The notes under the pieces were generated by a model that was not told the origin of the DNA, did no database searches, and was given only the letters and a program-made list of their open reading frames with translations. From the NCBI RefSeq assembly GCF_003053845.1, contig NZ_QAYG01000008.1, positions 1 to 64,000 of the forward strand: a stretch of 64,000 nt of DNA, in the 5' to 3' direction. Within the stretch, counting starts at the first letter, position 1. Each line of letters begins with the position of its first letter. The position numbers were made by a program, and so were the translations under genes. Positions 10,001 through 49,601 of this stretch are shown here, piece after piece. The DNA is from Breoghania corrubedonensis (lineage in GTDB: Bacteria > Pseudomonadota > Alphaproteobacteria > Rhizobiales > Stappiaceae).

Positions 10001-10030
10001 CTGTGCCTGTGCCTGTGCCTGTGCCCGTGC
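10001..10030. repeat. Hexanucleotide tandem repeat (CTGTGC)
   Basis: Four perfect CTGTGC copies (10001-10024) are followed by CCGTGC (10025-10030) and a decayed copy. It lies between the divergent uxuA and dehydrogenase starts, about 165 bp upstream of the latter. A six-base unit would not shift a reading frame, so any effect of copy-number change would be on promoter spacing or leader length. Confidence 0.7.
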
Positions 10031-10195
10031 CGGTACAGGTGTTGGCGAAGCCGGATCTTGGCGGTACGCAGACACTTGCACGGGTACGCGCAATGGCGAT
10101 CCGTATCGTACGCAGGCGGGCGCACGCATCAAGCGCTCAGGAAGCCAATCCCGGACCGCACATGTGCGGGTTCGCTGGGGTGGGAGGAAACGACG

Positions 10196-11248: not shown

Positions 11249-11284
11249 TCGTGGTGCCAAAACCGGATCGCTTGATGGAGCAGA

Positions 11285-11307
11285 TTGACACTCTACCATA
11301 CAAGTGA
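11285..11307 (+). promoter_or_regulatory. Putative promoter/operator before the sugar ABC importer
   Basis: A perfect TTGACA (11285-11290) is followed within the expected spacer by CCATACAAGTGA (11296-11307), the near-copy of the site at 9944-9955. No convincing -10 hexamer follows at 16-18 bp. The layout would suit repression by a GntR-type protein (inference). Confidence 0.3.
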
Positions 11308-11417
11308 TCGGATCTCGATGTTCTGGGAGGGCCGGGAGGCGGAGTTCTTCCAGACATGGCGGGCCGAACGGCATTTGAAAAATCGTGTCCGCGGGTGCGG
11401 GCGAAAGGGAGGAATAG

Positions 11418-12497
11418 ATGCAGATTGGAAAGTCGATTCTGACAGGCGCACTCGCCCTGGCAGGGGGAGCCGTTCTGGCTGGACAGGTGTTTGCCGCGAA
11501 TGGTCTGGCGACGGGTGACACCAGCACCAAACGCATAGCGTTCAGCAACTCCTATGCCGGCAATTCGTTTCGGCAGATCATGATCAAGGATTTCGAACGC
11601 ATGGCCCAGAAGGCGGTGGATGAGGGCAAAATCGCCGGTTTCACCACCGTTTCGGCCAACAATAACGTGACCGAGCAGGCAGGACAGATCCAGAACCTCA
11701 TCCTGCAGGGCTACGATGCGATCATCGTTCTGGCGGGCTCCGATACTGCACTCAACGGGGCGATCAAGGAAGCCTGCGGTGCGGGGATCACGGTGGTGGC
11801 CTTTGCCAGCGGGGTAACCGAGCCTTGCGTGCATACGGTCGATTACAACCTCGACAGCTATGCCAAGGCGGAGCTGGACTTCGTGCAATCGAAGCTGGGG
11901 TATGGTCCGGCCAATATCCTCGAGATCCGGGGCATGGCGGGCGACGGCTTCGACAAGCGTCTTCATGAAGGCGTGGTCAAGGCGATGGCCGAGCATCCGA
12001 ATTACAAATCGGTGGGCGAGGTCTATGGCCAGTGGACCGGCACCGTGGCGCAAAAGGAAGTTGCCGGCATTCTGCCTTCGCTCAAGAAGGTTGACGCGGT
12101 GCTGACACAGGGCGGTGATGGCTATGGCGCGATGCAGGCCTTCAAGGCTGCCGGGCGCGACATTCCGATCATCATCATGGGTAACCGGCAGGACGAATTG
12201 CAGGCCTGGAAGGATCAGCACATCGCGACCGGTTACGAGACCTTCTCGCTTGGTGCGACGCCTAGCGTGTCGCAGGTCGCGTTCTGGACCGCGCAGCAAA
12301 TCCTGGCCGGCAAGAAGGTTCCCGATTTCGTCGAGGTGCCGCTGCTTGAAGTGCATCAGGCGGATCTCGATGCATGGCTCAAGGTGGTGCCGGAAGGTGG
12401 CGTTCTGGATGCCGACTACGATCAGAAGATCGTCGGGCAGATCATTGACGCCAATATCGCGGGTACGGAGTTGCCTAGCGTCGCGGCGCCGAACTGA
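11418..12497 (+). CDS. Periplasmic sugar-binding protein of an ABC importer (ribose/RbsB type)
   Basis: A 359-residue secreted protein. It has a signal peptide at residues 1-26 (MQIGKSIL, hydrophobic GALALAGGAVLAG, cleavage near VFA-A) and a type I periplasmic fold with IAFSNSYAGNSFRQ near 40, GYDAIIVLAGSDTALNGAI near 98 and ILEIRGMAGDG near 170. It begins with a strong AGGGAGGAA ribosome site and heads an importer operon. The surrounding hexonate genes suggest an acidic sugar ligand rather than ribose (inference). Confidence 0.88.
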   Translation: MQIGKSILTGALALAGGAVLAGQVFAANGLATGDTSTKRIAFSNSYAGNSFRQIMIKDFERMAQKAVDEGKIAGFTTVSANNNVTEQAGQIQNLILQGYDAIIVLAGSDTALNGAIKEACGAGITVVAFASGVTEPCVHTVDYNLDSYAKAELDFVQSKLGYGPANILEIRGMAGDGFDKRLHEGVVKAMAEHPNYKSVGEVYGQWTGTVAQKEVAGILPSLKKVDAVLTQGGDGYGAMQAFKAAGRDIPIIIMGNRQDELQAWKDQHIATGYETFSLGATPSVSQVAFWTAQQILAGKKVPDFVEVPLLEVHQADLDAWLKVVPEGGVLDADYDQKIVGQIIDANIAGTELPSVAAPN

Positions 12498-12527
12498 GCC
12501 GGGTCGGTCATGCAACAGGTGGCAAAC

Positions 12528-13979
12528 ATGCCCGTCGGGGAGATGGGGGCCAAGGCCCCTCTCTTTCTTGCCGGTCGGGGGTTGAGCAAGAGCTATGGGG
12601 CGGTGAAGGCCCTAAGCGATACTGACTTCCATCTGGCAACCGGCGAAGTTGTCGGGCTGATCGGCCACAACGGTGCAGGGAAATCCACCCTGATCAACGT
12701 CCTTGCAGGGGTTGTCGCGCGTAGCGGCGGGATTTTCGAGGTGCTTGGTCGGGATGCGGGCGACTGGAGTGCGAACCTTGCCCGCGAAAACGGGCTGCGT
12801 TGCGTGTTTCAGGAGCTCTCGCTCTGTCCGAACCTGTCCGCGACCGAAAACACGCGCCTCCTGCACCCGGCTCTCAAGGGGTTCGGTTGGAAGCAGCGGG
12901 CGCGCAAGACCATCCAGTCCGCTCTGGATACGGTGTTTCCCGACAGCGGCATCGACGTCGATCGACCGGTTGGCGAACTGTCGCTTGGCGAACGGCAGAT
13001 GATCGAGATCGCGCGCGGGTTCAGCGTGACCGACAGTCCGGTCCGCGCGATCATTCTGGATGAACCCACCTCGTCTTTGGGAGCAGAGGCGACACGCCAG
13101 TTTCTGGAACAAGTCAGCAGAGCTTCGGAAGACGGGATTTCGGTAATCCTCGTTACACATCGGCTTGGAGAGATTCTGGCGGTCGCGCATCGCGTCGTGA
13201 CGATGAAGGACGGACTGGTCATCTCGGACCAGTTCAATGATGGGCTGAGCCGGTCCGAACTGGTTGCCGTGATGGGGGATCTCGAGCCCGAGACCCGCGA
13301 GCGTCGCGACGCGGTCGTGCGTGATGTTCCGGTTTTCTCGCATTCCAGCGGGCTTGGCGATCACGATATCGAACTGCATCAGGGTGAGATCGTGGGGCTT
13401 GCCGGCCTGGACGGTCACGGTCAGCGCGAGCGGCTGCGCGCAGTGTTCGATGCGGCGCGCGTCAGTGGACTGCCTGTCGCTTTTGTAGCCGGAGACCGGG
13501 TGAGCGAAGGGCTCTTCCCGCTCTGGTCCATTCGCGACAACCTGACGATCCGCTCGCTCTCGGCCTTGTCTCGCGGTGGACTGGTTTCGAACGAGGCAGC
13601 CGATCGGCTCACGCAATCCTGGTTCGAGCGCCTGAAAGTGCGCGCACCGGGGATCGCAACGCCCCTGCTCAGCCTGTCGGGTGGCAATCAGCAAAAGGTT
13701 CTGTTCGCGCGGGCGCTTGCCTCGGATGCGCGCCTGATCGTTCTGGACGACCCGATGCGCGGCGTTGATGTGGGCACCAAACACGAAGTTTACGCTCTTA
13801 TCCGCAACGAGGCGGAAACCGGACGCAGTTTCCTTTGGTATTCCACCGAGACCGAGGAATTCGAAAATTGCGACCGGCTTCATGTTTTCCGAGAAGGCCG
13901 GTCCGAGACCATTCTGGACGGCGAGCGGATAGAGCCGAACGCAATCCTTGAAGCCTCCTTCGGAGGACTCTATGTCTGA
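12528..13979 (+). CDS. Sugar ABC importer ATPase with two nucleotide-binding domains
   Basis: A 483-residue RbsA/XylG-like duplicated ATPase. Domain 1 has a full Walker A (GHNGAGKST), an LSLGERQ signature and a Walker B (AIILDEPTSSL). Domain 2 has a degenerate Walker A (GLAGLDGHGQRER) but an intact LSGGNQQK signature and VLDDPMRG, the usual pattern in this subfamily. The ATG at 12528 has AGGTGG five bases upstream; an ATG at 12510 in the same frame is the alternative. It follows the binding-protein gene and overlaps the first permease. Confidence 0.88.
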   Translation: MPVGEMGAKAPLFLAGRGLSKSYGAVKALSDTDFHLATGEVVGLIGHNGAGKSTLINVLAGVVARSGGIFEVLGRDAGDWSANLARENGLRCVFQELSLCPNLSATENTRLLHPALKGFGWKQRARKTIQSALDTVFPDSGIDVDRPVGELSLGERQMIEIARGFSVTDSPVRAIILDEPTSSLGAEATRQFLEQVSRASEDGISVILVTHRLGEILAVAHRVVTMKDGLVISDQFNDGLSRSELVAVMGDLEPETRERRDAVVRDVPVFSHSSGLGDHDIELHQGEIVGLAGLDGHGQRERLRAVFDAARVSGLPVAFVAGDRVSEGLFPLWSIRDNLTIRSLSALSRGGLVSNEAADRLTQSWFERLKVRAPGIATPLLSLSGGNQQKVLFARALASDARLIVLDDPMRGVDVGTKHEVYALIRNEAETGRSFLWYSTETEEFENCDRLHVFREGRSETILDGERIEPNAILEASFGGLYV

Positions 13980-32775: not shown

Positions 32776-34113
32776 TCAGAACGCCGCGTCGTCGAAGTCG
32801 AGCGGCAATCGTATTCGCACGAGCGTTCCGCGGCCTTCCCGGAAAGGACTGACGATTTCAAGCCCGTGATCACTGCCGAAATAGTGCCTGAGGCGACTGT
32901 CAACGTTGTAGAGCCCGATGCTCTTGCGGCCGTCCCGGTCGGCCACGCCCGCGAGCACCGCCTGCTTGCGGTCCGACGCGATGCCCTCGCCATTGTCGAC
33001 AATGTCTATGATCGCATCGCGGTCGTCGCGATACGCGATGATGTCGACCAGTCCGCCGCTCTCGCGCGGCTCGATGGCGTAGTTGATGCAGTTTTCCACG
33101 ATCGGCTGGAGAACCATGAACGGGCATGCCGTCCCGCCGAGATCTTCGGGAATGTCGATGTGGAAGGTGAAACGATCGCCGAGACGAATGCGAAGCAGGT
33201 AGAGGTAGTTCTGGACGTGCTCCAGTTCCGTGGAAAGCGGCACGAACTGGGAACCGCTCTTCTTCAGGACATAACGCATCATGTCGGCGAAAGCGTGCAC
33301 GGTCGTCTCGGTCTCTTCCGCGCCCTCCATAAGGGCCAGACGTCCGATCGTGTTCAGGACATTGAAGAGGAAATGCGGATTGACCTGATACGACAGCGCC
33401 TGAAGCTCCGCCTCTCTCAATGAACGTTCCAGTTCCGCGCGGCGCTTGGACTCCTCCATCAGCCGGAGGTTCTTGGCATAGAGCTCCTCGTTGACGCTGC
33501 TCGAATAGCTTTCTTCAACGATATACGAGGCGATGTAATAGAGGGAGTAGGCGGCGGAGCGAAGCCGCTCGTATGTGATCTGGCCGGTTTCGTTGTAAAG
33601 CGCGAGGAGTTCCGGGTTCTGTCGCCACGATTCTTCGGTGGGGAAAAGACCGGAGAGATCCTGAAGTTCGGGTTTCACATCGCTTGGCGGCAGCGTCACC
33701 TGGCCACAGATCACCGCGCCCAGATATTCACCGCGCATGATGATCGGGGCGGCGAAATCGACAAGGCCGCAATGGCACTTGTAGATGGAGGGGCCGCCGG
33801 AAGAGAGCGCGGTGCGCCCGCCCACCGCATCGCAGTGGTAACAGCGATCTCGCCACTTGGGGTGGTTGCGGATGGTGTGGCAGAAGCGGCTGAAGCCGCT
33901 CGGGTTGGTGACCGGCTCGCCTTGCGGATCAACAATGACCATTGCGACGCCAACGGCGGCGCTGAAATTGTCCTGCACCTTCTGCAGCATGTCGACGCTG
34001 GTCAAACTGGCCAAACGTTTCCGCTCCGCGATCTGGGCCTCGCCGATCTCGAGGCGCGGTTGCGACGTGGCGAGATCGCCAAGACTGGTTCGTTCCAGGA
34101 AGTCAGATTTCAA
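32776..34113 (-). CDS. LytS/YesM-class histidine kinase with PocR ligand-sensing domain
   Basis: A 445-residue soluble kinase. Residues about 41-200 form a PocR domain with its cysteine pattern (C78, RCYHC at 90-94, KCHCG at 112-116); residues 200-240 are a coiled coil; His247 in QVNPHFLFNVLNTIG is the phospho-acceptor; N341 (VENCINYA), DNGEGI and GLYNVDSRL form the ATPase. In Salmonella the PocR regulator responds to 1,2-propanediol, so the same ligand is likely here (inference). The start is taken as TTG at 34113, overlapping the metK stop as TTGA; an ATG at 34158 lies inside metK. Confidence 0.87.
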   Translation of the reverse strand: MKSDFLERTSLGDLATSQPRLEIGEAQIAERKRLASLTSVDMLQKVQDNFSAAVGVAMVIVDPQGEPVTNPSGFSRFCHTIRNHPKWRDRCYHCDAVGGRTALSSGGPSIYKCHCGLVDFAAPIIMRGEYLGAVICGQVTLPPSDVKPELQDLSGLFPTEESWRQNPELLALYNETGQITYERLRSAAYSLYYIASYIVEESYSSSVNEELYAKNLRLMEESKRRAELERSLREAELQALSYQVNPHFLFNVLNTIGRLALMEGAEETETTVHAFADMMRYVLKKSGSQFVPLSTELEHVQNYLYLLRIRLGDRFTFHIDIPEDLGGTACPFMVLQPIVENCINYAIEPRESGGLVDIIAYRDDRDAIIDIVDNGEGIASDRKQAVLAGVADRDGRKSIGLYNVDSRLRHYFGSDHGLEIVSPFREGRGTLVRIRLPLDFDDAAF

Positions 34114-35258
34114 TGGTAAGCCTTGATCAGGGCGTCCGTCCGATGCGCCCGCTCCCACAAGAACCCCTCATTTTCCCTTCCAAAATGCCCGTAGGCGGCA
34201 GTGCTTTCGAAGATTGGTCTTCTCATGTCCAGTGCTTCGATCATTCCCGAAACCGTTAGCGGGAAAACCAGACGGATCGCCCGCGCCAACGCATCGAGAT
34301 CAATGTCGTGCTCGTCTTCCGTCCTTACTCCGACCATTTCAGGTTCGCTCTGACCTATCGCAAATGCCAGCGAAATTTCGCAGTGCGACGAAAGGCCAGA
34401 GGCGACGACCGTCTTGGCGATGAGGCGTGCCATATAGGCGGCAGTGCGGTCGAGTTTCGTTGCATCCTTGCCGGAAAAGGCACCTCCGCCATGCCGGCCG
34501 ATACCGCCATAGGTATCGACCATAATCTTGCGCCCGGTCAGCCCCGTATCCGCAGCCGGACCGCCATGAACGAAACGGCCCGTGGGATTGATCAGCACAC
34601 GCGTCTCGCGCGTAAGCCAATTGCCCATGACGGGCGCGATGACCTGCTCGATCAGGCCACGGAGCATTTCCTCACGCCCTATATCCGCCGCGTGCTGGGC
34701 CGACAGCACCAGGCTCGTCAGTTCGACTGGCGACCCGGATGCGTCATTCTTGAAGGTCACCTGGGCCTTGCCGTCCGGCTTTAGCCACGCGAGCCGACCA
34801 GACTTGCGCGCATCCGTCAGGCCTTCCGTCAAGCGGTGGGCGTAGTGAATGGCCGCTGGCATCAGTGTCGCCGTCTCGTCGCATGCATAGCCGTAGAAGA
34901 TGCCCTGGTCGCCGGCTCCCAGCTCGTTCTCGCGCGAGACGCCCTGGGCTATGTCGGGTGACTGCCTGCGCAGATCCGTCAGCACGAAACAGCTGTCCGC
35001 GTCGAAGCCGAGCGCAGGATCGGTATATCCGATCCTGCGTACGACACCACGCGCGACCGCCGTCACATCGACCCGGGCAGTGGACGTGACCTCGCCTGCG
35101 ATGTGAAGGGTGTTGCCCGAGGCAAGCACCTCAACCGCCACGCGGGCCTCGGGATCCTGGGCCAGATAGGCGTCAAGCACGGCATCCGAAATCTGGTCGC
35201 AGACCTTGTCCGGATGTCCCTCCGTCACGGACTCGGAACTGGTATAGGTTGAAGCCAT
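34110..35258 (-). CDS. metK: S-adenosylmethionine synthetase, operon-embedded copy
   Basis: A 382-residue methionine adenosyltransferase with the N-terminal SESVTEGHPDKVCDQISDAVLD, GAGDQGIFYGYACDE near 115, the P-loop-like GGGAFSGKDATKLDR near 260 and the closing TAAYGHFGREN near 360. It makes AdoMet from ATP and methionine. Here it sits 24 bp after the glycyl radical activase, which consumes AdoMet to make the radical, and overlaps the sensor kinase. A dedicated AdoMet supply for the microcompartment enzyme is the likely reason. Whether the genome has another metK cannot be seen here. Confidence 0.93.
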   Translation of the reverse strand: MASTYTSSESVTEGHPDKVCDQISDAVLDAYLAQDPEARVAVEVLASGNTLHIAGEVTSTARVDVTAVARGVVRRIGYTDPALGFDADSCFVLTDLRRQSPDIAQGVSRENELGAGDQGIFYGYACDETATLMPAAIHYAHRLTEGLTDARKSGRLAWLKPDGKAQVTFKNDASGSPVELTSLVLSAQHAADIGREEMLRGLIEQVIAPVMGNWLTRETRVLINPTGRFVHGGPAADTGLTGRKIMVDTYGGIGRHGGGAFSGKDATKLDRTAAYMARLIAKTVVASGLSSHCEISLAFAIGQSEPEMVGVRTEDEHDIDLDALARAIRLVFPLTVSGMIEALDMRRPIFESTAAYGHFGRENEGFLWERAHRTDALIKAYH

Positions 35259-35282: not shown

Positions 35283-36200
35283 TCATCCGCCGATCTGGCA
35301 CCTGAGGCCGAGGTCTTCGATCACCTTGGTCAGGTGCGCGATGTTCTCGGGCTTCAGGTTGGGAAGGTCGCCCATCGGGTAGGGACGGCCGAGCAGGGCA
35401 TACTTGTTCTCGCCATAGGTGTGGTAGGGCAGCAGATGAACGGTATCCACGCCGGGCATCAGCTTGGCGAAGCGGCCGATGGCGCCGATCGCTTCCTCAT
35501 TGTCGTTCACGCCCGAGACGACGGGCACCCGCACCACGGCGTGCGTGAGCGAGGCGATGCACAGCGCGTTTTCGAGAATGATCCGGTTATCCACCCCGGT
35601 ATTTGCCTGGTGCGATTGCGGGTCGACCACCTTGAGATCGATCAACGCATGGTCCACGTGGGGCATTACATCGCGCACGATGTCGCGCGTTGTGTAGCCG
35701 GTCGTCTCCATCGCCGTATTCCAACCCTGCTCGTGGCAGGCCTTGAGAAGTTCGCGTGCGAATTCATGCTGGAAGAGCGGTTCGCCGCCCGAAAGCGTGA
35801 TCCCTCCGCCCGAACGGCGGTACTGGGTAGCGTCCTTGCGCAGTTCAATCATGACCTGGCGGATGGTCATTTTCTTGCCGGAGACCGTCAGCGCGTCGGT
35901 TGGGCAGACGCCGGCGCAGGTGCCGCATCTGATGCATTTTTCCCGGTCGACGAAGCCGGGATTGTCACGCGAAAGCGCCTTTACCGGACAGATCGGCACG
36001 CATTGACCGCAATGGATGCAGCTTGAGGCGCGGTAGAAGAGTTCCGGTTCCGGGTTCTGCGATTCCGGGTTGGAGCACCAGCGGCAGCGCAGCGGGCACC
36101 CCTTCAGGAAAACAATGGTGCGCACCCCCGGGCCGTCGTGGATCGAGAAGCGCTGAATGTCGAAGACAGTGCCCTCCATTTCATAGTCGATGCCGTCCAT
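35283..36200 (-). CDS. Glycyl radical enzyme activase (radical SAM)
   Basis: A 305-residue radical SAM protein. The start FDIQRFSIHDGPGVRTIVFLKGCPLRCRWCSNP holds the CxxxCxxC cluster ligands; two ferredoxin-like sets follow (CIHCGQCVPICP and CIRCGTCAGVCP, residues about 60-105), as in activases of diol dehydratase-type enzymes; GGGITLSGGEPLFQ near 130 binds AdoMet. It abstracts hydrogen from Gly821 of the dehydratase encoded at 44777-47314. It lies between the GrpU-like shell gene and metK. Confidence 0.95.
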   Translation of the reverse strand: MDGIDYEMEGTVFDIQRFSIHDGPGVRTIVFLKGCPLRCRWCSNPESQNPEPELFYRASSCIHCGQCVPICPVKALSRDNPGFVDREKCIRCGTCAGVCPTDALTVSGKKMTIRQVMIELRKDATQYRRSGGGITLSGGEPLFQHEFARELLKACHEQGWNTAMETTGYTTRDIVRDVMPHVDHALIDLKVVDPQSHQANTGVDNRIILENALCIASLTHAVVRVPVVSGVNDNEEAIGAIGRFAKLMPGVDTVHLLPYHTYGENKYALLGRPYPMGDLPNLKPENIAHLTKVIEDLGLRCQIGG

Positions 36201-36236: not shown

Positions 36237-36539
36237 TCAGAAGGAGGTCTGCAGCGCTTCGATGGCATCCATCGCCGTGCGCACAGCCGACAATTCTCCC
36301 ACGACCGCAAGCGACGTGACGTGCTGCGGGCAGGTTCCGTAGATCTCGACGGTGAAGACGTCGGCCGCCTTCATCGCCACATCGGAGAAGAAGAAGAGGT
36401 CGGTGATGTTGGACTGCACGAGCCCGACGGCGCCGATCGAGTGGTCCCGGACATAGGCGCGCCCATGCGGCGGCATGCGCCGCTGGAGCATCTGGAGCAC
36501 TTCGCTGTGCGGTGCATTGATGATGCGAATGCTCATCAT
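36237..36539 (-). CDS. GrpU/PduU-like circularly permuted BMC shell protein
   Basis: A 100-residue single-BMC-domain protein whose order fits the permuted PduU/EutS fold: MSIRIINAPHSEV, GRAYVRDHSIGAVGLVQSN, DVAMKAADVFTVEIYGTCPQHVTSLAVVGELSAVRTAMDAIEAL. C70, its only cysteine, lies in GTCPQH. GrpU shell proteins of glycyl-radical compartments are reported to bind an Fe-S cluster at the hexamer centre through such a cysteine. It is encoded between the aldehyde dehydrogenase and the activase, so a redox or cluster-transfer role is possible. Confidence 0.85.
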   Translation of the reverse strand: MMSIRIINAPHSEVLQMLQRRMPPHGRAYVRDHSIGAVGLVQSNITDLFFFSDVAMKAADVFTVEIYGTCPQHVTSLAVVGELSAVRTAMDAIEALQTSF

Positions 36540-36585: not shown

Positions 36586-38295
36586 TCAGCGTACGTTGAG
36601 CGCCTCGACCATCACGCAACGCCGCTTGCGGGCGAACGAGCGGGCGGAGGTCAGCCCTTCTCCGGTGGGGCCTGCGATTGTGAAGGTCGCGTGTCCCTCG
36701 CCGCCGACGCCGATGCCCGCATAGGAGGGGCCGTTCTTGACGAAAATCGTCGTCTGGATGAGCTTCGCCATCTTGGTCAGCTTGCGCACGTTGGTGGAGT
36801 GCATCATCGCCGTGTGTCGGTTTCCGTGTTCCAGATCCACCGCGAGGTCGATGGCGTCATCGACGCTCGGCGAGCGCACCAGAGGCAGGATCGGCATCAT
36901 CAGCTCTTCCTGGACGAAGGGGTGCTCCTTGGGCAGTTCGATCAGGATGACCTTGACCTCATCGCCTACCTTGATGCCGACCTTGTCGAGCAGGTGGACG
37001 GCGCTCTTGCCGACGCAAGCCGTCTGCGGGCCGCCCTTTTCGTTGATCACCAGCGCCTGCAGCTTGTCGATGACCGCGGCATCGGTGACGAGATAGGCAC
37101 CACATTTCTGCATGCAGAGGATGAGGTAATCAGCGATCTGGTCGACCGCGATAACCTCCTTTTCCGCAATGCAGGGCAGGTTGTTGTCGAAGCTGCAACC
37201 GTTGACGATATCCTGTGCGGCCTTCTCGATATCCGCGGTCTCGTCGACCACGACCGGCGGGTTCCCCGCGCCTGCGCCGATGGCCTTCTTGCCGGTCGAC
37301 ATGACCGTCTTGACGATGCCCGGTCCGCCGGTGGCCACCAGCATCCGGACCTTGGGATGCGCCATCATCGCGTTGGTGTTCTCTATCGACGGCTTCTGCA
37401 CCGTGACGACGAGATTGGCGGGCGCGCCGAGGGCCGCGAGCTTGCGGTTGATCAACTTGACGGTAAGCAGCGAGACCTTGGTCGCGCGGGGATGGGGGCT
37501 GAACACCGCCGCGTTGCCCGCCGCCAGCATGCCGATCGAATTGCAGATGATCGTTTCGGTCGGATTGGTGGTCGGCGTAATCGCGCCGATAACACCGAAG
37601 GGCGAGTATTCGACCAGTGTCAGGCCGCCGTCGCCCGACGCCGCATCCGTGGTCAGATCCTCCACGCCGGGGGATTTTTCTGCCGCCAACCGGTTCTTGA
37701 TGATCTTGTGCGCGGCATTGCCCATGCCGGTCTGCTCGACCGTCTGCGTCGAGATCCGCTCCAGCGTCGCGGGATCGACAAAGATCTCGCGAATGCCATC
37801 GACAAATGCCTTGCGCGCAGCCATGGAGCAGAAGAGATACTGGCGCTGGGCCTGCTCTGCCGCAGCGATGGCCTCGTCCATCGTCGCGAACACGCCGTCG
37901 CCCAGGGTGGTCGCTTCCTCGTCGCTCACGACCGGGTTTGTCACTGCTGCCTTGGCCGCCGGTGCGCTTGTCCCTGCCTTCTTCTCACCAAGGCCGCTTG
38001 CCAGCGCTTTGGCGAGGATGGCATCCATCGGGTCCTCACCGGAGGCGGCCGGCTGCCAGCAGCAGCGCTTGGAACCCGGCACGAAAGCCGGAGTGCCTTT
38101 GGCTGCCGGGACAGATCCGGCGTCTGCCAGGATGTTCGCCACCATATCGGACACGAATTCACTTGCCTGCGCGACGGGGGCGCCCTGTGTGGCTGAAGTT
38201 GTCTGGTTCACAGCCTGTTCCGGCGCCGCCCCGGGGGCGGCGCCATAACCGTCGAGAACCTGGGTCACGGCATCGCTGATCTGTTGGTCGTTCAT
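36586..38295 (-). CDS. pduP: CoA-acylating propionaldehyde dehydrogenase (PduP type) with long N-terminal targeting extension
   Basis: A 569-residue enzyme. The dehydrogenase domain (about 125-569) has EYSPFGVIGAITPTTNPTET near 230, GAGNPPVVVDE near 341 and the catalytic Cys375 in SFDNNLPCIAEKEV. It oxidises propionaldehyde to propionyl-CoA with NAD. Ahead of it lies a 120-residue Ala/Pro-rich extension holding three candidate amphipathic helices: 4-16 (QQISDAVTQVLDG), 46-59 (EFVSDMVANILADA) and 89-103 (PMDAILAKALASGLG). The first resembles the PduP encapsulation peptide. ATG 38295 overlaps the preceding gene by 4 bp; a longer frame reaches into it and was rejected. Confidence 0.93.
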   Translation of the reverse strand: MNDQQISDAVTQVLDGYGAAPGAAPEQAVNQTTSATQGAPVAQASEFVSDMVANILADAGSVPAAKGTPAFVPGSKRCCWQPAASGEDPMDAILAKALASGLGEKKAGTSAPAAKAAVTNPVVSDEEATTLGDGVFATMDEAIAAAEQAQRQYLFCSMAARKAFVDGIREIFVDPATLERISTQTVEQTGMGNAAHKIIKNRLAAEKSPGVEDLTTDAASGDGGLTLVEYSPFGVIGAITPTTNPTETIICNSIGMLAAGNAAVFSPHPRATKVSLLTVKLINRKLAALGAPANLVVTVQKPSIENTNAMMAHPKVRMLVATGGPGIVKTVMSTGKKAIGAGAGNPPVVVDETADIEKAAQDIVNGCSFDNNLPCIAEKEVIAVDQIADYLILCMQKCGAYLVTDAAVIDKLQALVINEKGGPQTACVGKSAVHLLDKVGIKVGDEVKVILIELPKEHPFVQEELMMPILPLVRSPSVDDAIDLAVDLEHGNRHTAMMHSTNVRKLTKMAKLIQTTIFVKNGPSYAGIGVGGEGHATFTIAGPTGEGLTSARSFARKRRCVMVEALNVR

Positions 38296-38812: not shown

Positions 38813-39079
38813 TTAATGTGTCTCGACGGTATCCACGATGCCGACGATGCTGGCATCAGTGACCGAATGGACGAGGGTTCCCGCATGACGCGCGGCGCTT
38901 CCCGTTGCCACGATGACGATTTCGCCATAGCCCGCGCCCACCGTATCCGTGGCGATTTCGGTTGTTCCGTCGGGTTCCTGCTTTTCGGTAAGGCGGGCCA
39001 CGATCAGCAACTTGCTGCCGCAAAGCGACGAGTCCTTGCTGGTGGAGACGACCGTTCCGATCACACGTCCGAGATGCAT
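38813..39079 (-). CDS. eutN: EutN/CcmL-family pentameric vertex protein
   Basis: An 88-residue beta-barrel protein starting MHLGRVIGTVVSTSKDSSLCGSKLL, then AGYGEIVIVATGSAARH near 50. This is the BMC-P family that caps the vertices of microcompartments. The ATG at 39079 has AAGGAG at ideal distance; an upstream in-frame extension overlaps the flavoprotein gene and is not used. It is the only vertex protein in the locus, enough to close a shell. Confidence 0.93.
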   Translation of the reverse strand: MHLGRVIGTVVSTSKDSSLCGSKLLIVARLTEKQEPDGTTEIATDTVGAGYGEIVIVATGSAARHAGTLVHSVTDASIVGIVDTVETH

Positions 39080-39090
39080 CGTCTTTCTCC

Positions 39091-39897
39091 TTATTCCCTG
39101 ACGAGCAGGATCTGCCGGGACTTGAGTTCCTCGGCCGCCATTGGTGTGACCAGCACATCCCGGCCGAGGCGTATTTCCGTCCCCGCCAAGACCTTTGCTT
39201 CGCTCCAACCGAAAACCCGTCGTGATGGGGCGCGTGTCGGAACGGCGATCTGATTTCTGTCGGGGTCATGCGCAAGCGTTGTCGTCGGCGTATCGGCGAC
39301 CGTCGCGGCGAGCCTGGCCGCCCAGGTGAGTTCCACGCCGTAACTTTCCAGGCGGCCGAGGTGTCCCGCCATCATGTCGCGGTACGCGGCGTTGCCTGTC
39401 AGGCCTCTGGCAATGCGCTCGCGCGCGGCCGGGCAGCAACCGTCGCGGGCGGCAACGATCCGCTGGCCGCGTTCGAGCGCGCCGGCCACGAGCGAGGAGA
39501 TGTCGTCATCGGCCAGCCCAAGCGCCACGCGGGCGGCAAGCGGCAAGCTCAAGGTTGGCATCAACACCAGCGCATGCCGGTTGAGGATTGCATCGACGGT
39601 CTCGTTCTGGCTCCCGGCATTGCGAATGAAGGGAGACAGGGCGGCACCGCCGAGGGCATCGAGGCGGTCGAGAGAAACGAGTTCGCGAGCCTGTCGGCTG
39701 CGGTGGATTTCAAACGACCAGCCCGCATCGACCAGCGTCGCGAGCGAGCGGACGGCCGGTTCCAGTCCCAGCTCCGTATCCGAAAACAGCACCAGCGCAG
39801 AACGCGCGCGCGCGTTAAGCGCAGCGACGATCCGGTCTGACAGGAGGTCGAGCAATGCCCGGTTGAGGGCCGCGTCGAGGCGAGCGCGATCCATCAC
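39091..39897 (-). CDS. Microcompartment-associated flavoprotein-family protein
   Basis: A 268-residue protein. The centre HALVLMPTLSLPLAARVALGLADDDISSLVAGALERGQRIV (about 107-147) fits the flavoprotein (PF02441-like) fold, in which the peptide binds FMN. Residues 2-29 are strongly helical and amphipathic (LNRALLDLLSDRIVAAL) and may serve targeting. The tail DVLVTPMAAEELKSRQ resembles tails of other Pdu/Eut accessory proteins. Its start overlaps eutJ by 4 bp. Role unknown; a redox or flavin-delivery function in the lumen is a guess. Confidence 0.65.
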   Translation of the reverse strand: MMDRARLDAALNRALLDLLSDRIVAALNARARSALVLFSDTELGLEPAVRSLATLVDAGWSFEIHRSRQARELVSLDRLDALGGAALSPFIRNAGSQNETVDAILNRHALVLMPTLSLPLAARVALGLADDDISSLVAGALERGQRIVAARDGCCPAARERIARGLTGNAAYRDMMAGHLGRLESYGVELTWAARLAATVADTPTTTLAHDPDRNQIAVPTRAPSRRVFGWSEAKVLAGTEIRLGRDVLVTPMAAEELKSRQILLVRE

Positions 39898-40764: not shown

Positions 40765-41436
40765 TCAGGCCTTCCGGATCCGGACGAGATCGTCGTTCCT
40801 CAGGCCGAATGCGTTGGCTTCCTCAATGTCGATGTGCATCTCCAGTGAGGAGTTTTCGGCGGCGCGGATAGCAACCCTGTGCATGACGCCGCCCCGCGGC
40901 CCGTCGACTTCCACGTCGACCTCGTCGCCGTTGACCAGGCCGAGCTGTGCTGCGGTCTCGGGCAGCATGTGGATGTGGCGCATGGCGACGATGACGCCGT
41001 AGTCCTTATGGACGGTGCCCTGCGGGCCGATCACGTCGATCCCCGGCGAATTCTCAAGATGTCCGGAAAGACGCAGCGGCGGCCGCAGGCCGAGAACGAA
41101 ACCGTCGGCCACCGAAACCTCGATCTGGGTTTCCTTGCGCAGCGGGCCGAGGACGCGGACCTTGCCGATCTCGCCTTTCGGGCCGCGCAGGGTGACGGTT
41201 TCTTCGGCCGCGTACTGGCCTGATTGCTTCATCGCTTTCTTGCGCGTCAGTGACGAGCCGGGACCGAAAAGCGTGTCCATGTCGGAGCGGGAAAGATGGA
41301 TGTGGCGGTTGGAGACGCCGATTGGGACGAGCGCGGGATCCGTAACCGCCCTTGCCTTTGCTGCATCCCTGGCCGCAGTCATTCCCTCTGCAAGGAGTTC
41401 CGCGACGATCCGTTCGATTGCTTCTACGGGCTGCAT
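40765..41436 (-). CDS. pduL: PduL-type phosphotransacylase with N-terminal encapsulation helix
   Basis: A 223-residue PTAC with two beta-barrel repeats and the metal-binding motifs GVSNRHIHLSRSD near 41 and MRHIHMLPETAAQ near 148. It converts propionyl-CoA to propionyl-phosphate, recycling CoA inside the shell. Residues 4-18 (VEAIERIVAELLAEG) form an amphipathic helix followed by an Ala-rich linker, the PduL type of targeting peptide. A 140-bp gap without recognisable genes separates it from the PduK-like gene upstream. Confidence 0.94.
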   Translation of the reverse strand: MQPVEAIERIVAELLAEGMTAARDAAKARAVTDPALVPIGVSNRHIHLSRSDMDTLFGPGSSLTRKKAMKQSGQYAAEETVTLRGPKGEIGKVRVLGPLRKETQIEVSVADGFVLGLRPPLRLSGHLENSPGIDVIGPQGTVHKDYGVIVAMRHIHMLPETAAQLGLVNGDEVDVEVDGPRGGVMHRVAIRAAENSSLEMHIDIEEANAFGLRNDDLVRIRKA

Positions 41437-41576: not shown

Positions 41577-42281
41577 CTAGTTCTTCCGCGACGAACCGTG
41601 CCGACGGCGTGTTCGCGATCCCGCTCCGGGACCTTTCGGGTCGGGTTGCGGCTTGTCGTCGGCCACTTTTGCTTCGGCCGGAGTTTCCTTGGCGGCGGGC
41701 TCTGGTTCCGCCGGCTCGGGCCTTGTCTCTTCCGCTAGCGCGGGGGTGGTTATCGACTGCTCAGCGTCAGTTGCAGGTGTCTCGTCGTCCGGAACCTGTG
41801 GCTCTTCGGCCGGATCATGCGGTGCCACTTCACTTTTCTCCGCCAGGAGAGGTCCAGCCGCCTGAGACTCAGCCTGGATCGAGGCAGGTTCGGGCGCGGG
41901 CTTTTCGCTCCTCTTGCCGGCGTCGATTTCTGCCTGGGGCTCGGCCCGCTTTTCCGTTTCTGCCTTCTTGGCCGGCTGAGGCTGGGTAGCGCCCCCAACG
42001 GTTTCAGGGCTATCCACCAGCTGTGCGACATCGCGGGCCGGCCGTGCGATCACATTGACCGAAACCACACGGTTCACCCGGCTTGCGGCTGCGGCCCCCG
42101 CAGAGACCGCAGCCTGGATGGCGCCGACTTCTCCGAGAAGCTTGACGACCGTCATGCCCTCGCCCTTGGCCAGTTCGTAGCCCACCAGCGTGACGTTGGC
42201 CGCTTTCACAGCCGCGTCGGCGGCCTCGACGGCCGCGGTCAGGCCGATGGTTTCGATCAGTCCGAGGCTTTGCTCAGTCAT
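41577..42281 (-). CDS. PduK-like BMC-H shell protein with long disordered tail
   Basis: A 234-residue protein: residues 1-92 are a standard BMC domain (LGLIETIGLTAAVEAADAAVKAANVTLV, then VNVIARPARDV), and about 140 residues of Pro/Ala/Glu-rich, low-complexity tail follow, ending in a basic GSRTRRRHGSSRKN. The pore loop reads AKGEGMT instead of KIGSG, making the pore more acidic. No cysteine occurs in the tail, unlike Fe-S-bearing PduK tails. GGAGGA precedes the ATG at 42281; a longer frame overlapping the tandem BMC gene was rejected. Confidence 0.88.
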   Translation of the reverse strand: MTEQSLGLIETIGLTAAVEAADAAVKAANVTLVGYELAKGEGMTVVKLLGEVGAIQAAVSAGAAAASRVNRVVSVNVIARPARDVAQLVDSPETVGGATQPQPAKKAETEKRAEPQAEIDAGKRSEKPAPEPASIQAESQAAGPLLAEKSEVAPHDPAEEPQVPDDETPATDAEQSITTPALAEETRPEPAEPEPAAKETPAEAKVADDKPQPDPKGPGAGSRTRRRHGSSRKN

Positions 42282-42303: not shown

Positions 42304-43119
42304 TCAGATGTACGGCGTGGTCGTCGACACCAGCGGGGTAGGATCCATCGCGCCGAGCAGTTGCTTGCCGACATCGCGCGCGGCGTGGATCGCCTGACGC
42401 ACGGCACCGGAATCGCCGCTGAACGTGAAGATCACCTCGTTGGAGAAGCTCGTGCCGTTAGCCGGTGAAGAGAAGCCGCAGGCATCGATCGTGGCCGCCT
42501 TGGCAGCCGTATCGGCAAGCACCACACCGATGGCGGCGGGAGCCCCCACGGTGATGCCGAACGCCTGCCCGATCGGAGCCCCGAACGCCTTGTTGAGCGC
42601 ATAGCTCGCTCGGGCGGTGTACTGGAACTCCAGATGACCGGCCGGCGAACCGTAGACATCGCCCATGGTGCGATCGAGTTCGCCGAGCATGACTTCCACG
42701 GCACGGCGGGCGTCGGAGACGTCCGCTGCCCCGAAGATGATCAACGAACCGTGGCCGGCCCCGCCTTCGGTGTCACGCGGCAGTTCGATCAGGACGACCT
42801 CGCTGTTCGTGGCCTTGACCGCTTCGTCGGCCGCGAAGATGTGCGGACCGGCGCCGGTGCGTGCTCCGACGATGCCGATGGACCGGTATTTCTTGTCCAG
42901 CTTCATCTGTGCGTGCAGCAACGGATCGACATTGGCGATAACCATGCCAATCGTGTTGCCGATGGCCGTGCCCACGAACTCCGTCAGATTGCAGGCCTTC
43001 GGGGCCTTGGCGCGGGGCGCCTCGGCCTTGGGCCCGGGGGTGGCGGACGGAGCGCTTTCGCCGCCGCCCATCTTGCGGATGACTTCCCCCATCAGTTGTT
43101 CGACAAGATCGTCTTTCAT
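42304..43119 (-). CDS. pduB: Tandem-BMC trimeric shell protein (PduB type)
   Basis: A 271-residue protein with two fused BMC domains (about 44-155 and 156-271; NLTEFVGTAIGNTIGMVIANVD and YRSIGIVGARTGAGPHIFAADEAVKAT belong to the first, FGAPIGQAFGITVGAPAAIGVVLAD to the second). PduB trimers form gated facets. Residues 1-18 (DDLVEQLMGEVIRKMG) plus a Gly/Pro/Ala linker make an N-terminal extension; in Salmonella the PduB extension ties shell to cargo. It lies 28 bp after the BMC-H gene. Confidence 0.92.
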   Translation of the reverse strand: MKDDLVEQLMGEVIRKMGGGESAPSATPGPKAEAPRAKAPKACNLTEFVGTAIGNTIGMVIANVDPLLHAQMKLDKKYRSIGIVGARTGAGPHIFAADEAVKATNSEVVLIELPRDTEGGAGHGSLIIFGAADVSDARRAVEVMLGELDRTMGDVYGSPAGHLEFQYTARASYALNKAFGAPIGQAFGITVGAPAAIGVVLADTAAKAATIDACGFSSPANGTSFSNEVIFTFSGDSGAVRQAIHAARDVGKQLLGAMDPTPLVSTTTPYI

Positions 43120-43147: not shown

Positions 43148-43438
43148 TTATTCGGCGGCTGCTGCGGGATGCGGAAGGATGCGTTCCACTTCCATGTGCG
43201 GCCGCGGGATGACGTGGACGGACACCACGGAGCCGACCTTCTCGGCTGCCACGGCACCTGCGTCGGTTGCGGCCTTCACCGCGCCGACGTCCCCACGCAC
43301 CATCACGGTGACGAGGCCCGAACCGATCTTCTCGTAGCCGATCATCGTCACGTTGGCCGACTTCACCATGGCGTCGGCGGCTTCGATCGCGCCGACCAGA
43401 CCTTTGGTTTCGACCATTCCCAGTGCTTCCTGTTGCAT
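43148..43438 (-). CDS. pduA: Hexameric BMC-H shell protein (PduA/PduJ type)
   Basis: A 96-residue single BMC-domain protein: [57 protein letters not shown]. The KIGSG pore loop is the one that lines PduA hexamers and passes diols. It is probably the major facet protein. The ATG at 43438 has AAGGAG six bases upstream; an ATG at 43456 is possible but less well spaced. Confidence 0.95.
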
Positions 43439-43526
43439 CGCTGTCTCCTTGGTCACGATGTTCCGTTATTGATACTTTGCCGTCTTCTCTTCGCGCTTCT
43501 TGCTCTGCTGCTTTCTCCCTCGGTTC

Positions 43527-44645
43527 CTATCCGCCGATGCGGGCGAGCAGATTCTCCAGCTCGGGCTGGGACGGTTTGCGGGGATTGCTGGCCGTGCAGG
43601 CATCGGCAAGCGCGGCCGCCGCTATCTCCGACCGAATACGGCCGAATTGCTCCATGTCGACGCCAAGATCACGCAGCGTCGAGGGGATCGAAAAGCGAAT
43701 GTTGAAGGCCTCGATGGCCCTGATCAGAGCGCGTACTCCGGCGCGGGTCGAAGGCACGTCCAACCCGATGCGCCGCGCAATGCGCGCATATCTTTGTGCG
43801 GCATCCGGTTCCTCCGCGTTCCAGGCGATCACCATCGGCATCAGCACCGCGTTGACACGGCCATGGACGACGTGAAGCTTGCCGCCGAGCGCATGGGCGA
43901 GGCTGTGGTTGATGCCGAGGCCGGCGGAGGAAAAGGCGAGGCCGGCAAGGCACGAGGCCTGATGCATGGCATCGCGCGCCGCGATGTCGTCGCCGTTGTC
44001 GTAGGCCCGGGGCAGGCTTTCGAAGGCAAGCTCCAGTGCTTTCTCGGCAAAGGCGTCCGTGAAGTGGGAAGCGCCGGTGGACACTACGGCTTCGATTGCG
44101 TGGGTGATGACGTCCATGCCGGTGTCGGCGGTCACCTTGGCGGGCGCGCTGCGAACGAATTCCGGATCGAGCAGCGCCACGTCGGGCACCAGTTCGTTGG
44201 AGATCAGCGGGAACTTGCGGCCTTGCGCGGGGTCGGAAATGACCGCGAAGGACGTGACCTCGGACCCGGTGCCGCTGGTGGTTGGTATGGCGACAAACGG
44301 GATCTTGCGGCCATGTACCGTCTCGCGGACGATCGCCAGGATCGCCTTGGCCGCGTCGATCGGAGAGCCGCCGCCCAATGCGACCACCACATCGGGGCAA
44401 AAATCGGTGAAGAGCCGTGCGCCCTTGGAAACGGTATCGACCGGTGGTTCGGGAATGGCTTCGTCGAAGACGAGAACTTCGCTTTCGCTCAGGTAATCCT
44501 TCACGCGGTCAAGCGCGCCCGAACTGGCCATGAAGGCGTCGGTAACGATGCCGACCTTCTGTCCGCGATAGGCGTACAGCCGTTCCAGCAAACCAGGTCC
44601 GAAGACGATCTCTGTCCTGGGGGAGAAGCTCTGGTAGCGCGGCAT
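43527..44645 (-). CDS. pduQ: Iron-type alcohol dehydrogenase (PduQ-like 1-propanol dehydrogenase)
   Basis: A 372-residue group III dehydrogenase. VVVALGGGSPIDAAKA near 86 binds NAD, PTTSGTGSEVTSFAVI near 121 and the metal residues lie in HAIEAVVSTGASHFTDAF near 182 and GINHSLAHALGGKLHVVHG near 244. It reduces propionaldehyde to 1-propanol and regenerates NAD for PduP. No helical targeting extension precedes the domain, as for Salmonella PduQ, which enters by binding PduP. Confidence 0.9.
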   Translation of the reverse strand: MPRYQSFSPRTEIVFGPGLLERLYAYRGQKVGIVTDAFMASSGALDRVKDYLSESEVLVFDEAIPEPPVDTVSKGARLFTDFCPDVVVALGGGSPIDAAKAILAIVRETVHGRKIPFVAIPTTSGTGSEVTSFAVISDPAQGRKFPLISNELVPDVALLDPEFVRSAPAKVTADTGMDVITHAIEAVVSTGASHFTDAFAEKALELAFESLPRAYDNGDDIAARDAMHQASCLAGLAFSSAGLGINHSLAHALGGKLHVVHGRVNAVLMPMVIAWNAEEPDAAQRYARIARRIGLDVPSTRAGVRALIRAIEAFNIRFSIPSTLRDLGVDMEQFGRIRSEIAAAALADACTASNPRKPSQPELENLLARIGG

Positions 44646-44776: not shown

Positions 44777-47314
44777 TCAGAACACCTGTTCGGTGCGGCT
44801 GATGATGTCGTCCTGCACTTCCTTGGCGAGCACGACGAACTGGGCGGAGTAGCCCGCCACACGAACAACCAGGTCCCTGTGGGCCTCCGGGTTCTTCTGC
44901 GCTTCGAGCAGGGTGGCGCGGTCGATCACGTTGAACTGCACGTGCATGCCCTTGTGATCGAAGTAGGAGCGCACCAGCGAGGCGAAGTGCTGCAGACCAT
45001 TGTCACCGGCCAGGGCTGAGGGCAGGAACTTCTGGTTGTAGAGCGTTCCATTGGAGGCGATGAAGTGGTCGAGCTTGGCCACGGAGTTCGCGGCTGCCGT
45101 CGGTCCCTTCACGTCCTTGCCCTGGCGGGGCGATACGCCGTCGGCCAACGGAGCATTCGCCGGACGACCGTCGGGCAGGGCCCCGACGTCCTTGCCGAAG
45201 AGCACGTTGGCGGAGACCGGATAGATGCCGGCCTGGAACTGACCACCGCGCGGGTTCTTGTACTTCTCCACTTCCTTGCAGTAGATCTGGGCGCACTTGC
45301 GGGCGATCATGTCGACTTCGTCGATGTCGTTGCCGAAGCACGGCGCGCTGTCGAGCATCCGGCGGATGCCGTCGTACTTGCCGTTGCCGCCGCCATTGCC
45401 GTTTCCGGCTGCAAGCGTGCGGTAGACTTCGTCCTTGAGCGTCGACATGTCGGTGGAGTTGGAATTGACCAGCACCTGGCGAACCGCGGCGTAGACCTGC
45501 TCTTCGGTCGGTTCCGTGCTGCCGTTCCCTGCGGCCTTGGCGCCCTGGGCGAGACCGAAGTTGGCGTCGAGAGCCTCCTTCAAATCTGCCATGGTCAGGG
45601 CCTTGTCATCGAAGACGAACTTCTTCATCGCATAAACCGAGTCACCACTGTCGGCGACGCCGAAGGCCTGCGGACCCGTGAAGTTGTAGATCGCGCCGCC
45701 TTCCTGAACCGACATGCCGCGGCCCATGCAGTCGTCGACCATGGCGGAGAGGAAGGGCAGGGGAGCCCTTTCGGCATGGGCGATATCGACACAGTTATCG
45801 GCCTCCGCCAGATGGCGGACGAAGAACGACATCTGTTTGTTGAAGGCCTCGAAGAAATCGTCGACCGATTTCCAGTTGGTCATTTCACCAGTGACAGGCC
45901 CGAGCTGGGTGTCGCCAACCTTGCCGTTGTTCAGGGTGATTTCGAGAACCTTGGCCACGTTGAAGAAGGCCGCATCGTGCCAGCCTTCCGTGCGGTGGAT
46001 CGCTTGCGGTTCCACACAGCCAACGATGCCGTAGTCGCGTGCGTCGGCCAGCGACACACCGCGGTTCTGCAAGGCGGGGATGATCACTTCGTCATTGTAG
46101 ATCGCCGGTACGCCGAGGCCGAGGCGAACGACTTCCGCCGCACGGAACAGGAACTCGTCGGGCGTATCCTGCCACACGCGGATCGAGAAGGAAGGTGCGG
46201 GCAAACGGACATGGGCGACGGCTTCCATGCACATGTAGGAAACGTCATTGGTGGCATCCAGGCCGTCTTCGGTCTGACCGCCGACGCACAGGTTCTGGAA
46301 CACGGCGTAGCCGGCGAACGCCTGGGCCGAGACCTCGTCGCGGGTCTTGTTGACGTCGTTGAGCTTGATCCAGATGCAGTCGATGAGCTCCTGCGCGAAT
46401 TCGCGGCCGATGGACTTGTCGGCTTCCAGATAGGGCTGCATGTACTGGTCGAAGCGGCCCGGCGAGATGGAGTGGCCACTGGATTCGATCTGCAGCATGC
46501 ACTGGACGAACCACATCGTCTGGCAGGCTTCCCAGAACGTCGTGGCGCCGTTTTCCGGCACGCGACGGCAGTTCTGAGCAACCTGCTGCAGCTCCTGCTT
46601 GCGGGTCGGGTTGGATTCCGCTTTGGCCAGTTCGTCCGCCTTGTCGGCGTAGCGATGGGCGAAGTTGATCGCGGCGTTGTAGGTGATGATGATCGCGTTA
46701 TAGAACTGCTGCTTCTTGATGTAGGACGGATCCATCCGGTCCAGCAGTTCCAGTTCCTTGACCGCCTGGGCGATGATACCGCGGAAGCCGATCTTCAAGA
46801 TCTTGCCGTAGTCCACGCAGACGTGGCCGACGCCGCCGTAGAAATAGTTGCCCACCGTGAAGACGCCGTTAGCCATACAGTCCTTGGTCTTCTTGGACAT
46901 GTAGGAGGTGGCGAGATCGCTCGTGGTCTTGCCGGGCCAGTATTTGAAGGCCTCGTGCAGTTCTGCCGCCGTCTCCTTGGGAATTTCGAACGGATCGGCG
47001 ACGCGGTTGGCCATGGTCTCGAATTCGGCTTCGACCCAGTCGAAGGAGAATTCGGGGCAGATCTCGGTCGAACGCGGATTCTTGGTGATGGCGCCGACGA
47101 TCAGCTCGTCTTCGCGGATCGTGACCGGAAGTTCGTTGAAGATCTTCTCTGCCACTTTCGCGCGACGCAGGATCGGCGGAAGCCCTTCCGTTTCCTTGTA
47201 GGCCTCTGTCGCCAGGACGGCTCGCTCGGATTCAACATACGGGCGCGCATTCAGGATCTGGTTCTTCAACCGGATGATACGGTCCGTTGGTTTCGTAAAG
47301 CCCTTCTCAATCAT
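44777..47314 (-). CDS. B12-independent glycyl radical 1,2-propanediol (diol) dehydratase with internal encapsulation peptide
   Basis: An 845-residue glycyl radical enzyme; the catalytic Cys433 and Glu435 are in YGIVGCVEPQ and the radical Gly821 in RVAGYSAQF. Using glycerol dehydratase numbering as I know it, His164 (GGVGHV), His281-Ser282 (SGHSISP) and Asp447 (GWHDAAF) also fall at the same positions, so a diol substrate fits better than choline. Between about residues 588 and 647 there is an extra Gly/Asn/Ser-rich segment with two helices (EEQVYAAVRQVLVN and TLKDEVYRTLAAG) that shifts the radical glycine by 58 positions. A R. palustris homologue is reported to have such an intramolecular encapsulation peptide. 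Product: propionaldehyde. Confidence 0.93.
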   Translation of the reverse strand: MIEKGFTKPTDRIIRLKNQILNARPYVESERAVLATEAYKETEGLPPILRRAKVAEKIFNELPVTIREDELIVGAITKNPRSTEICPEFSFDWVEAEFETMANRVADPFEIPKETAAELHEAFKYWPGKTTSDLATSYMSKKTKDCMANGVFTVGNYFYGGVGHVCVDYGKILKIGFRGIIAQAVKELELLDRMDPSYIKKQQFYNAIIITYNAAINFAHRYADKADELAKAESNPTRKQELQQVAQNCRRVPENGATTFWEACQTMWFVQCMLQIESSGHSISPGRFDQYMQPYLEADKSIGREFAQELIDCIWIKLNDVNKTRDEVSAQAFAGYAVFQNLCVGGQTEDGLDATNDVSYMCMEAVAHVRLPAPSFSIRVWQDTPDEFLFRAAEVVRLGLGVPAIYNDEVIIPALQNRGVSLADARDYGIVGCVEPQAIHRTEGWHDAAFFNVAKVLEITLNNGKVGDTQLGPVTGEMTNWKSVDDFFEAFNKQMSFFVRHLAEADNCVDIAHAERAPLPFLSAMVDDCMGRGMSVQEGGAIYNFTGPQAFGVADSGDSVYAMKKFVFDDKALTMADLKEALDANFGLAQGAKAAGNGSTEPTEEQVYAAVRQVLVNSNSTDMSTLKDEVYRTLAAGNGNGGGNGKYDGIRRMLDSAPCFGNDIDEVDMIARKCAQIYCKEVEKYKNPRGGQFQAGIYPVSANVLFGKDVGALPDGRPANAPLADGVSPRQGKDVKGPTAAANSVAKLDHFIASNGTLYNQKFLPSALAGDNGLQHFASLVRSYFDHKGMHVQFNVIDRATLLEAQKNPEAHRDLVVRVAGYSAQFVVLAKEVQDDIISRTEQVF

Positions 47315-48689: not shown

Positions 48690-49601
48690 ATGAGTGCAAT
48701 CGGTCTACTCGTCGCCTTCGGCGGCGGCATTTTCGGCGCGGCGATCGGGGCTCTTCCCGCCTTCGCATTCGTCGGCATACTGACGATGCTCGGCGTGGCT
48801 ATTCAGCTCGCCGTTGCACCCGCGGCAACAGACTTCTTCGGCATTCCGTTTGGCGTATTCGGGCCCCATGTGGGTGGTTTCGCCTCCGGTGTCGCCGCCG
48901 CCGCTTATGCGGCTGCCAAGGGCAAGCTCGACAGCGGTCGCAACATCGTGACCGCCGGGATGGGCCTGAACAGCCCCGACGTTCTCCTCGTCGGCGGTAT
49001 TTTCGGCATCATCGGCTACGTGATCGTCTGGCTTCTCGCGATGGTGCCCGACTTCGGTCCCGGCCTCGCCTGGACAGACTATCCGGGCATGGGTGTGGTC
49101 ATTTCTGCCTTCATCGCCCGGTTTGCGTGGGGAACCTGCGGCCTGTGCGGCAAGACCCCGGAAGGTGAGCGTTTCTTCCATCCAACCGACGCCACCAAGT
49201 GGCTGGCGTTTCAAAGCAGTGTCGGCCAGCTCATCGTCATCGGTGTCGGTGTCGGCCTTTTCGGTGGCTGGCTTGGCGTGACTTACGGAACGCCCGGCGC
49301 CTTGCTGGCCTTCGGCATCACAGCGGCAAGCCTGCTGTTCCTCACCGTCGGCGTGCTGACACCCGTGACGCATCACATCGCGTTGCCGGCGGCCATTGTC
49401 GGTGTGGCATCGGGAAGCATCATCCTGGCCGGTATCGCAGGGTTGATTTGCGCCTTCGTCGGCGAGTTTTACGCCCGTGTCTTCCTCGATCGCGGCGATA
49501 CCCATATCGACCCGCCGGCCTGCACGATCGCGACGATGACACTTGTCTTCAACTTCCTGACGTCGGTCGGTTTCTGGGCCTTCCTGCCCGTTCCGGTCTG
49601 A
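48690..49601 (+). CDS. Multi-span membrane protein of unknown function linked to the microcompartment
   Basis: A 303-residue protein with about 8-9 hydrophobic helices and several glycine-rich stretches (FGGGIFGAAIGALPAF at the start, FGPHVGGFASGVAAAAYAA near 57, LVGGIFGIIGYVIVWLLAM near 99). A soluble loop near 145-165 has FAWGTCGLCGKTPEGERFF with a CxxC pair. I do not recognise the family. A strong GGGGGA site precedes the ATG. Divergent placement beside the diol compartment operon and before ackA suggests uptake of propanediol or export of propionate/propanol (inference). Confidence 0.75.
   Translation: MSAIGLLVAFGGGIFGAAIGALPAFAFVGILTMLGVAIQLAVAPAATDFFGIPFGVFGPHVGGFASGVAAAAYAAAKGKLDSGRNIVTAGMGLNSPDVLLVGGIFGIIGYVIVWLLAMVPDFGPGLAWTDYPGMGVVISAFIARFAWGTCGLCGKTPEGERFFHPTDATKWLAFQSSVGQLIVIGVGVGLFGGWLGVTYGTPGALLAFGITAASLLFLTVGVLTPVTHHIALPAAIVGVASGSIILAGIAGLICAFVGEFYARVFLDRGDTHIDPPACTIATMTLVFNFLTSVGFWAFLPVPV

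Follow-up and report, generated by a model that had tools for sequence, protein, structure and literature searches.

An insert resembling an internal encapsulation peptide in a predicted B12-independent 1,2-propanediol dehydratase of a GRM3-like microcompartment locus

Most known encapsulation peptides (EPs) are terminal tails; an internal EP shows that a position within the chain can also direct cargo to a protein organelle. All 1,2-propanediol dehydratases of the GRM3, GRM4 and GRM5 types are reported to carry an insertion of ~60 aa that is predicted to act as an EP (2019 review, PMC6325248), and Zarzycki et al. (2017, PMC5311937) described the insert of the Rhodopseudomonas palustris enzyme as two helices, each of about 15 residues. 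The EP-deleted R. palustris enzyme was more soluble and showed less precipitation with activity retained, and the insert sequences of GRM3 and GRM5 enzymes show no strong conservation between the two types (PMC5311937). The peptide is called putative or predicted in the literature searched, where no encapsulation assay of the insert was found. Here we analysed a 64,000-nucleotide stretch of Breoghania corrubedonensis DNA (the window), in which one gene very probably encodes the signature enzyme of a GRM3-type microcompartment with an internal EP after residue 587.

The product, a glycyl radical enzyme (GRE), matched PF02901 and PF01228 in a Pfam scan, both above the cut-off, and the chains nearest to it among solved structures (73% identity; TM 0.93/0.99 to the AlphaFold2 (AF2) model) are named 1,2-propanediol dehydratase. 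This identity to chains of that name (73-74%) suggests that 1,2-propanediol is the substrate. The enzyme, its catalytic residues and the parts of the insert are located as follows:

44777-47314, minus strand: GRE, predicted B12-independent 1,2-propanediol dehydratase, 845 aa (Pfam PFL-like and Gly_radical)
46016-46018, minus strand: active-site Cys433 in a GCVEPQ motif, invariant in 48 aligned GREs
45374-45553, minus strand: insert, residues 588-647, predicted internal EP with linkers, sequence LAQGAKAAGNGSTEPTEEQVYAAVRQVLVNSNSTDMSTLKDEVYRTLAAGNGNGGGNGKY; 58 residues beyond C. butyricum glycerol dehydratase and a low-confidence appendage in the model
45506-45553, minus strand: linker 1, residues 588-603 (596-603 with pLDDT <50; pN/pS 0.80 for 588-601)
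45461-45505, minus strand: helix 1, residues 604-618, EEQVYAAVRQVLVNS, EP-like (AF2 helix; top 13-mer of the enzyme by the EP matrix; pN/pS 0.47)
45407-45448, minus strand: helix 2, residues 623-636, MSTLKDEVYRTLAA (AF2 helix; pN/pS 0.45)
45383-45406, minus strand: linker 2, residues 637-644, Gly/Asn-rich (637-643 with pLDDT <50; pN/pS 0.86 for 637-646)
44852-44854, minus strand: radical Gly821 in an RVAGYS motif, invariant in 48 aligned GREs

By phmmer, residues 1-587 aligned without gaps onto residues 1-587 of C. butyricum glycerol dehydratase (1r8w) and residues 649-844 onto 591-786. The resulting offset, exactly 58 residues, carries the radical glycine from position 763 to 821. This alignment confirmed the preliminary description of the sequence, which had placed an insert at about residues 588-647 and held that the active-site residues before it keep glycerol dehydratase numbering. 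The excess over six insert-free relatives, in which the span is 29-39 residues as against 76 here, was 37-47 residues, less than 58 because the C. butyricum enzyme is itself unusually short at that point. With residue 1 aligned to residue 1 of 1r8w, and the C-terminus one residue beyond the aligned end, there is neither an N-terminal nor a C-terminal EP.

AF2 was run with 48 aligned relatives and gave a mean pLDDT of 86.7; in ten-residue blocks, the average was 48-60 across residues 591-640 and 75-98 in most core blocks. Judged by this confidence, the model suggests an insert that is not packed into the enzyme core, and packing of that kind, which the preliminary description had named as contrary to its proposal, is not what the model shows. 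The same description had proposed two amphipathic helices. Two helices are indeed predicted (residues 604-618 and 623-636), but their amphipathicity was not significant, the helical hydrophobic moment compared with shuffles giving p values of about 0.13 for helix 1 and 0.12-0.19 for helix 2, with medians over 30 relatives of 0.10 and 0.24, respectively. Amphipathicity alone is a weak criterion, and the per-helix hydrophobic moment was dropped as proof of an EP. Selection, measured as pN/pS among eight alphaproteobacterial GREs, stood at 0.20 for the core, 0.47 for helix 1, 0.45 for helix 2, and 0.80 and 0.86 for the two linkers; both helices are clearly constrained and the linkers nearly free to vary. 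Helix 1 was kept in proteobacterial and clostridial relatives, with E604, Y608 and V611 conserved. Residues K627, V630, Y631 and L634 of helix 2 showed 88-100% pairwise identity in alpha- and gammaproteobacteria, and this helix was not kept in clostridia.

The surrounding locus is GRM3-like, with shell proteins, a vertex protein, an activating enzyme (AE), an aldehyde dehydrogenase (AldDH), PduL and an alcohol dehydrogenase (ADH) together:

35283-36200, minus strand: GRE-activating enzyme (CxxxCxxC radical-SAM motif; as a query it retrieves AE genes in related loci)
36237-36539, minus strand: small BMC-domain protein (PF00936 at 29.6 bits, above the cut-off)
36586-38295, minus strand: CoA-acylating AldDH, 569 aa, with its own N-terminal EP (helix MNDQQISDAVTQVL; NF011927 and Aldedh; AAAGGAG before the ATG at 38295)
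38813-39079, minus strand: EutN/CcmL-type vertex protein (CcmL/EutN family matches, below the equivalog cut-off)
40765-41436, minus strand: PduL phosphate propanoyltransferase with an EP-like N-terminus (PF06130)
41577-42281, minus strand: BMC-H shell protein with a long C-terminal extension (PF00936 at residues 5-81 of 234)
42304-43119, minus strand: PduB shell protein (BMC-T) with an EP-like N-terminus, MKDDLVEQLMGEVI (NF011944 and TIGR04501 above the cut-off)
43148-43456, minus strand: PduA-like shell protein (BMC-H; BMC domain, E 2e-28)
43527-44645, minus strand: alcohol dehydrogenase, 1-propanol dehydrogenase-like and PduQ-like (matches PduQ/ADH genes of related BMC loci)

All five BMC-domain matches in the 5.3-Mb genome lie at 36-43 kb of the window, in the PduA-like BMC-H, the long-tailed BMC-H, PduB (two domains) and the small BMC protein. 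Genes for EutJ and a PocR-type sensor kinase are also found in the locus. The N-terminus of the AldDH (37993-38295, minus strand) seemingly contains three EP-like helices, at residues 1-14, about 45-59 and about 88-101; by eye, several alphaproteobacterial relatives look alike and gammaproteobacterial ones have two. A gene resembling S-adenosylmethionine synthetase (34110-35258, minus strand) adjoins the AE gene; the activating enzyme consumes SAM. Within the locus, a 268-aa protein (39091-39897, minus strand) had no Pfam or NCBIfam match, and beside it an apparent membrane protein of 303 aa (48690-49601, plus strand), with no Pfam match, could be a substrate transporter.

A position matrix was trained on the N-termini of AldDH, PduB and PduL, with GREs excluded from the training. 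The training segments were chosen by their hydrophobic-spacing pattern, so that the matrix tests pattern similarity and not common descent, and by this measure helix 1 (TEEQVYAAVRQVL) was the top-ranked 13-mer of the window enzyme, at 9.1 bits compared with 4.6 for the next. Helix 1 was still rank 1 (7.9) once the locus's own sequences had been removed from the matrix. Across relatives, the best segment of the insert took rank 1 in 41 of the 77 GREs that carry the insert; for the alpha- and gammaproteobacterial GREs of the close set the count was 16 of 17, with the register shifted in two of the 16.

Using GREs of related loci extracted by phmmer, we counted the co-occurrence of the insert and shell genes in 57 loci with at least 20 kb of sequence, the window included, with shell genes sought within about 10 kb. 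Insert and shell genes were found together in 45 loci, the insert alone in six, neither in six and shell genes without the insert in none (45/51 insert-bearing versus 0/6 insert-free loci with shell genes; Fisher p 2.5e-5 without correction for descent). The second finding that the preliminary description had named as contrary, encapsulation of an enzyme without the insert, was sought here, and none of the six insert-free relatives had shell genes within about 10 kb. For the six long-flanked insert-bearing genes that had no shell gene within about 10 kb, shell genes are present elsewhere in the genome. Of 19 insert-bearing genes with no shell gene in the sequence stretch examined around them, 18 belong to genomes that have shell genes elsewhere. 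With the insert columns left out of the alignment, the GRE tree placed insert-free genes in at least two positions and showed three changes of the insert state, with two independent pairs on well-supported branches. Because the evolutionary events are few, with only these two pairs, the association was not significant after correction for descent and is suggestive once descent is allowed for; a phylogenetic sign test relating the insert to shell genes was dropped for having too few independent pairs.

The GRE of Erwinia mallotivora, one of the six insert-free relatives, falls inside an insert-bearing group of the Enterobacterales and keeps the catalytic motifs, and it has no insert and no neighbouring shell genes. 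Its locus comprises a GlcG-like gene, the GRE, an AE, a response regulator and a weak ADH fragment, perhaps a remnant. Shell genes occur in this genome only at another locus, together with a different GRE in a frame of 1152 residues. In E. mallotivora the insert and the shell genes were seemingly both lost, a natural example in which the two are apparently gone together.

Two further relatives were noted. In Anaerobutyricum hallii (match at 10001-12529 of locus L046), no shell or AE gene was detected within 10 kb of an insert-bearing GRE, and the genome has many BMC-domain matches. A same-genus genome (G399; L013/L104) contains a GRE frame (L104, 11304-13895) that is 88% identical to residue 553, after which the frame departs; Gly stands at the position of catalytic Cys433, and the shell, PduL and ADH genes beside it appear to have intact open frames. 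This damaged gene is either a pseudogene or an assembly error.

Collectively, the insertion itself, the AF2 model, the EP matrix and the co-occurrence with shell genes support well the proposal of the preliminary description that the insert is the intramolecular EP of a GRM3-type propanediol dehydratase, as in R. palustris. We propose that helix 1 (604-618) and helix 2 (623-636), carried on flexible linkers, would form an internal EP between two core segments, as a loop hanging off a normally folded GRE. Helix 1, through a hydrophobic pattern common to the N-terminal peptides of the AldDH, PduL and PduB of the same operon, would bind shell proteins and/or other cargo, and by this binding the enzyme would co-assemble into the shell. 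We regard as rather doubtful a division of roles in which helix 1 is the general code common to AldDH, PduL and PduB and helix 2 (LK[DN]EVYR[TQ]L, only in alpha- and gammaproteobacterial GRM3) binds a lineage-specific partner.

It is possible, though on balance we think it unlikely, that the insert is mainly an element of cargo aggregation or oligomerisation, joining dehydratases to each other or to the AldDH and building the core with no shell contact. In line with such a role, an unusual oligomer interface of the R. inulinivorans enzyme is reported to include its predicted EP, and removal of the EP reduces precipitation of the R. palustris enzyme (PMC5311937); EPs are thought to serve core as well as shell assembly (PMC6325248). 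However, the match of helix 1 extends to the N-terminus of the shell protein PduB besides those of cargo enzymes, and a function in aggregation overlaps with that of an internal EP. Docking of the AE or of an electron donor, rather than the shell, is very improbable as the role of the insert: GREs need an AE, and in R. palustris the two proteins bind each other, but the GRE combined and co-purified with the AE was the truncated form (PMC5311937), and insert-free relatives also adjoin an AE gene. That the insert is a neutral spacer or a folded part of the core, without a targeting function, fits the almost free evolution of the linkers (pN/pS 0.80-0.86) and is nonetheless hardly credible given the clear constraint on the helices (0.45-0.47), an insert not confidently packed in the AF2 model and an insert-free solved enzyme, 9rco, that keeps the same core.

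The 1,2-propanediol dehydratase structures 9rco, 9rcp and 9rcq (2025) are 73-74% identical to the window enzyme, with cores that superpose at 1.3-1.7 A (1.4 A for 9rco, with TM 0.93/0.99 to the AF2 model), but in 9rco the insert is absent and RSG stands in its place. With RSG at the insert site and 92.6% identity to an insert-bearing Raoultella enzyme, 9rco looks like an engineered EP-less construct. The GRM5 diol dehydratase of Roseburia inulinivorans (5i2a, 5i2g) is 52% identical to the window enzyme and has its insertion at the corresponding position; about 40 fewer residues are modelled in 5i2g than in 5i2a, consistent with a mobile insert. The B12-independent glycerol dehydratase of C. 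butyricum (1r8w; 55% identical) shares the fold and active site but has no insert and, according to PMC5311937, no association with a microcompartment.

The closest match is the GRM3 propanediol dehydratase of R. palustris BisB18, which has the same two ~15-residue helices, short loop and unordered flanking linkers, no obvious terminal EP on the GRE, an insert absent from C. butyricum glycerol dehydratase and a partner AldDH with a multi-helix N-terminal EP (PMC5311937). The preliminary description had taken the two candidate helices as a difference from R. palustris; this was mistaken, since two are described there (PMC5311937), and we found no anatomical difference when the insert was set against the published description. 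The AldDH is longer here, at 569 aa compared with 512 in R. palustris BisB18 (about 57 more). The two-helix insert of the R. palustris type is thus already known, and the locus adds an example that leaves the published picture unchanged: a clean case of a known insert type, in which helix 1 closely matches the EPs of its partners.
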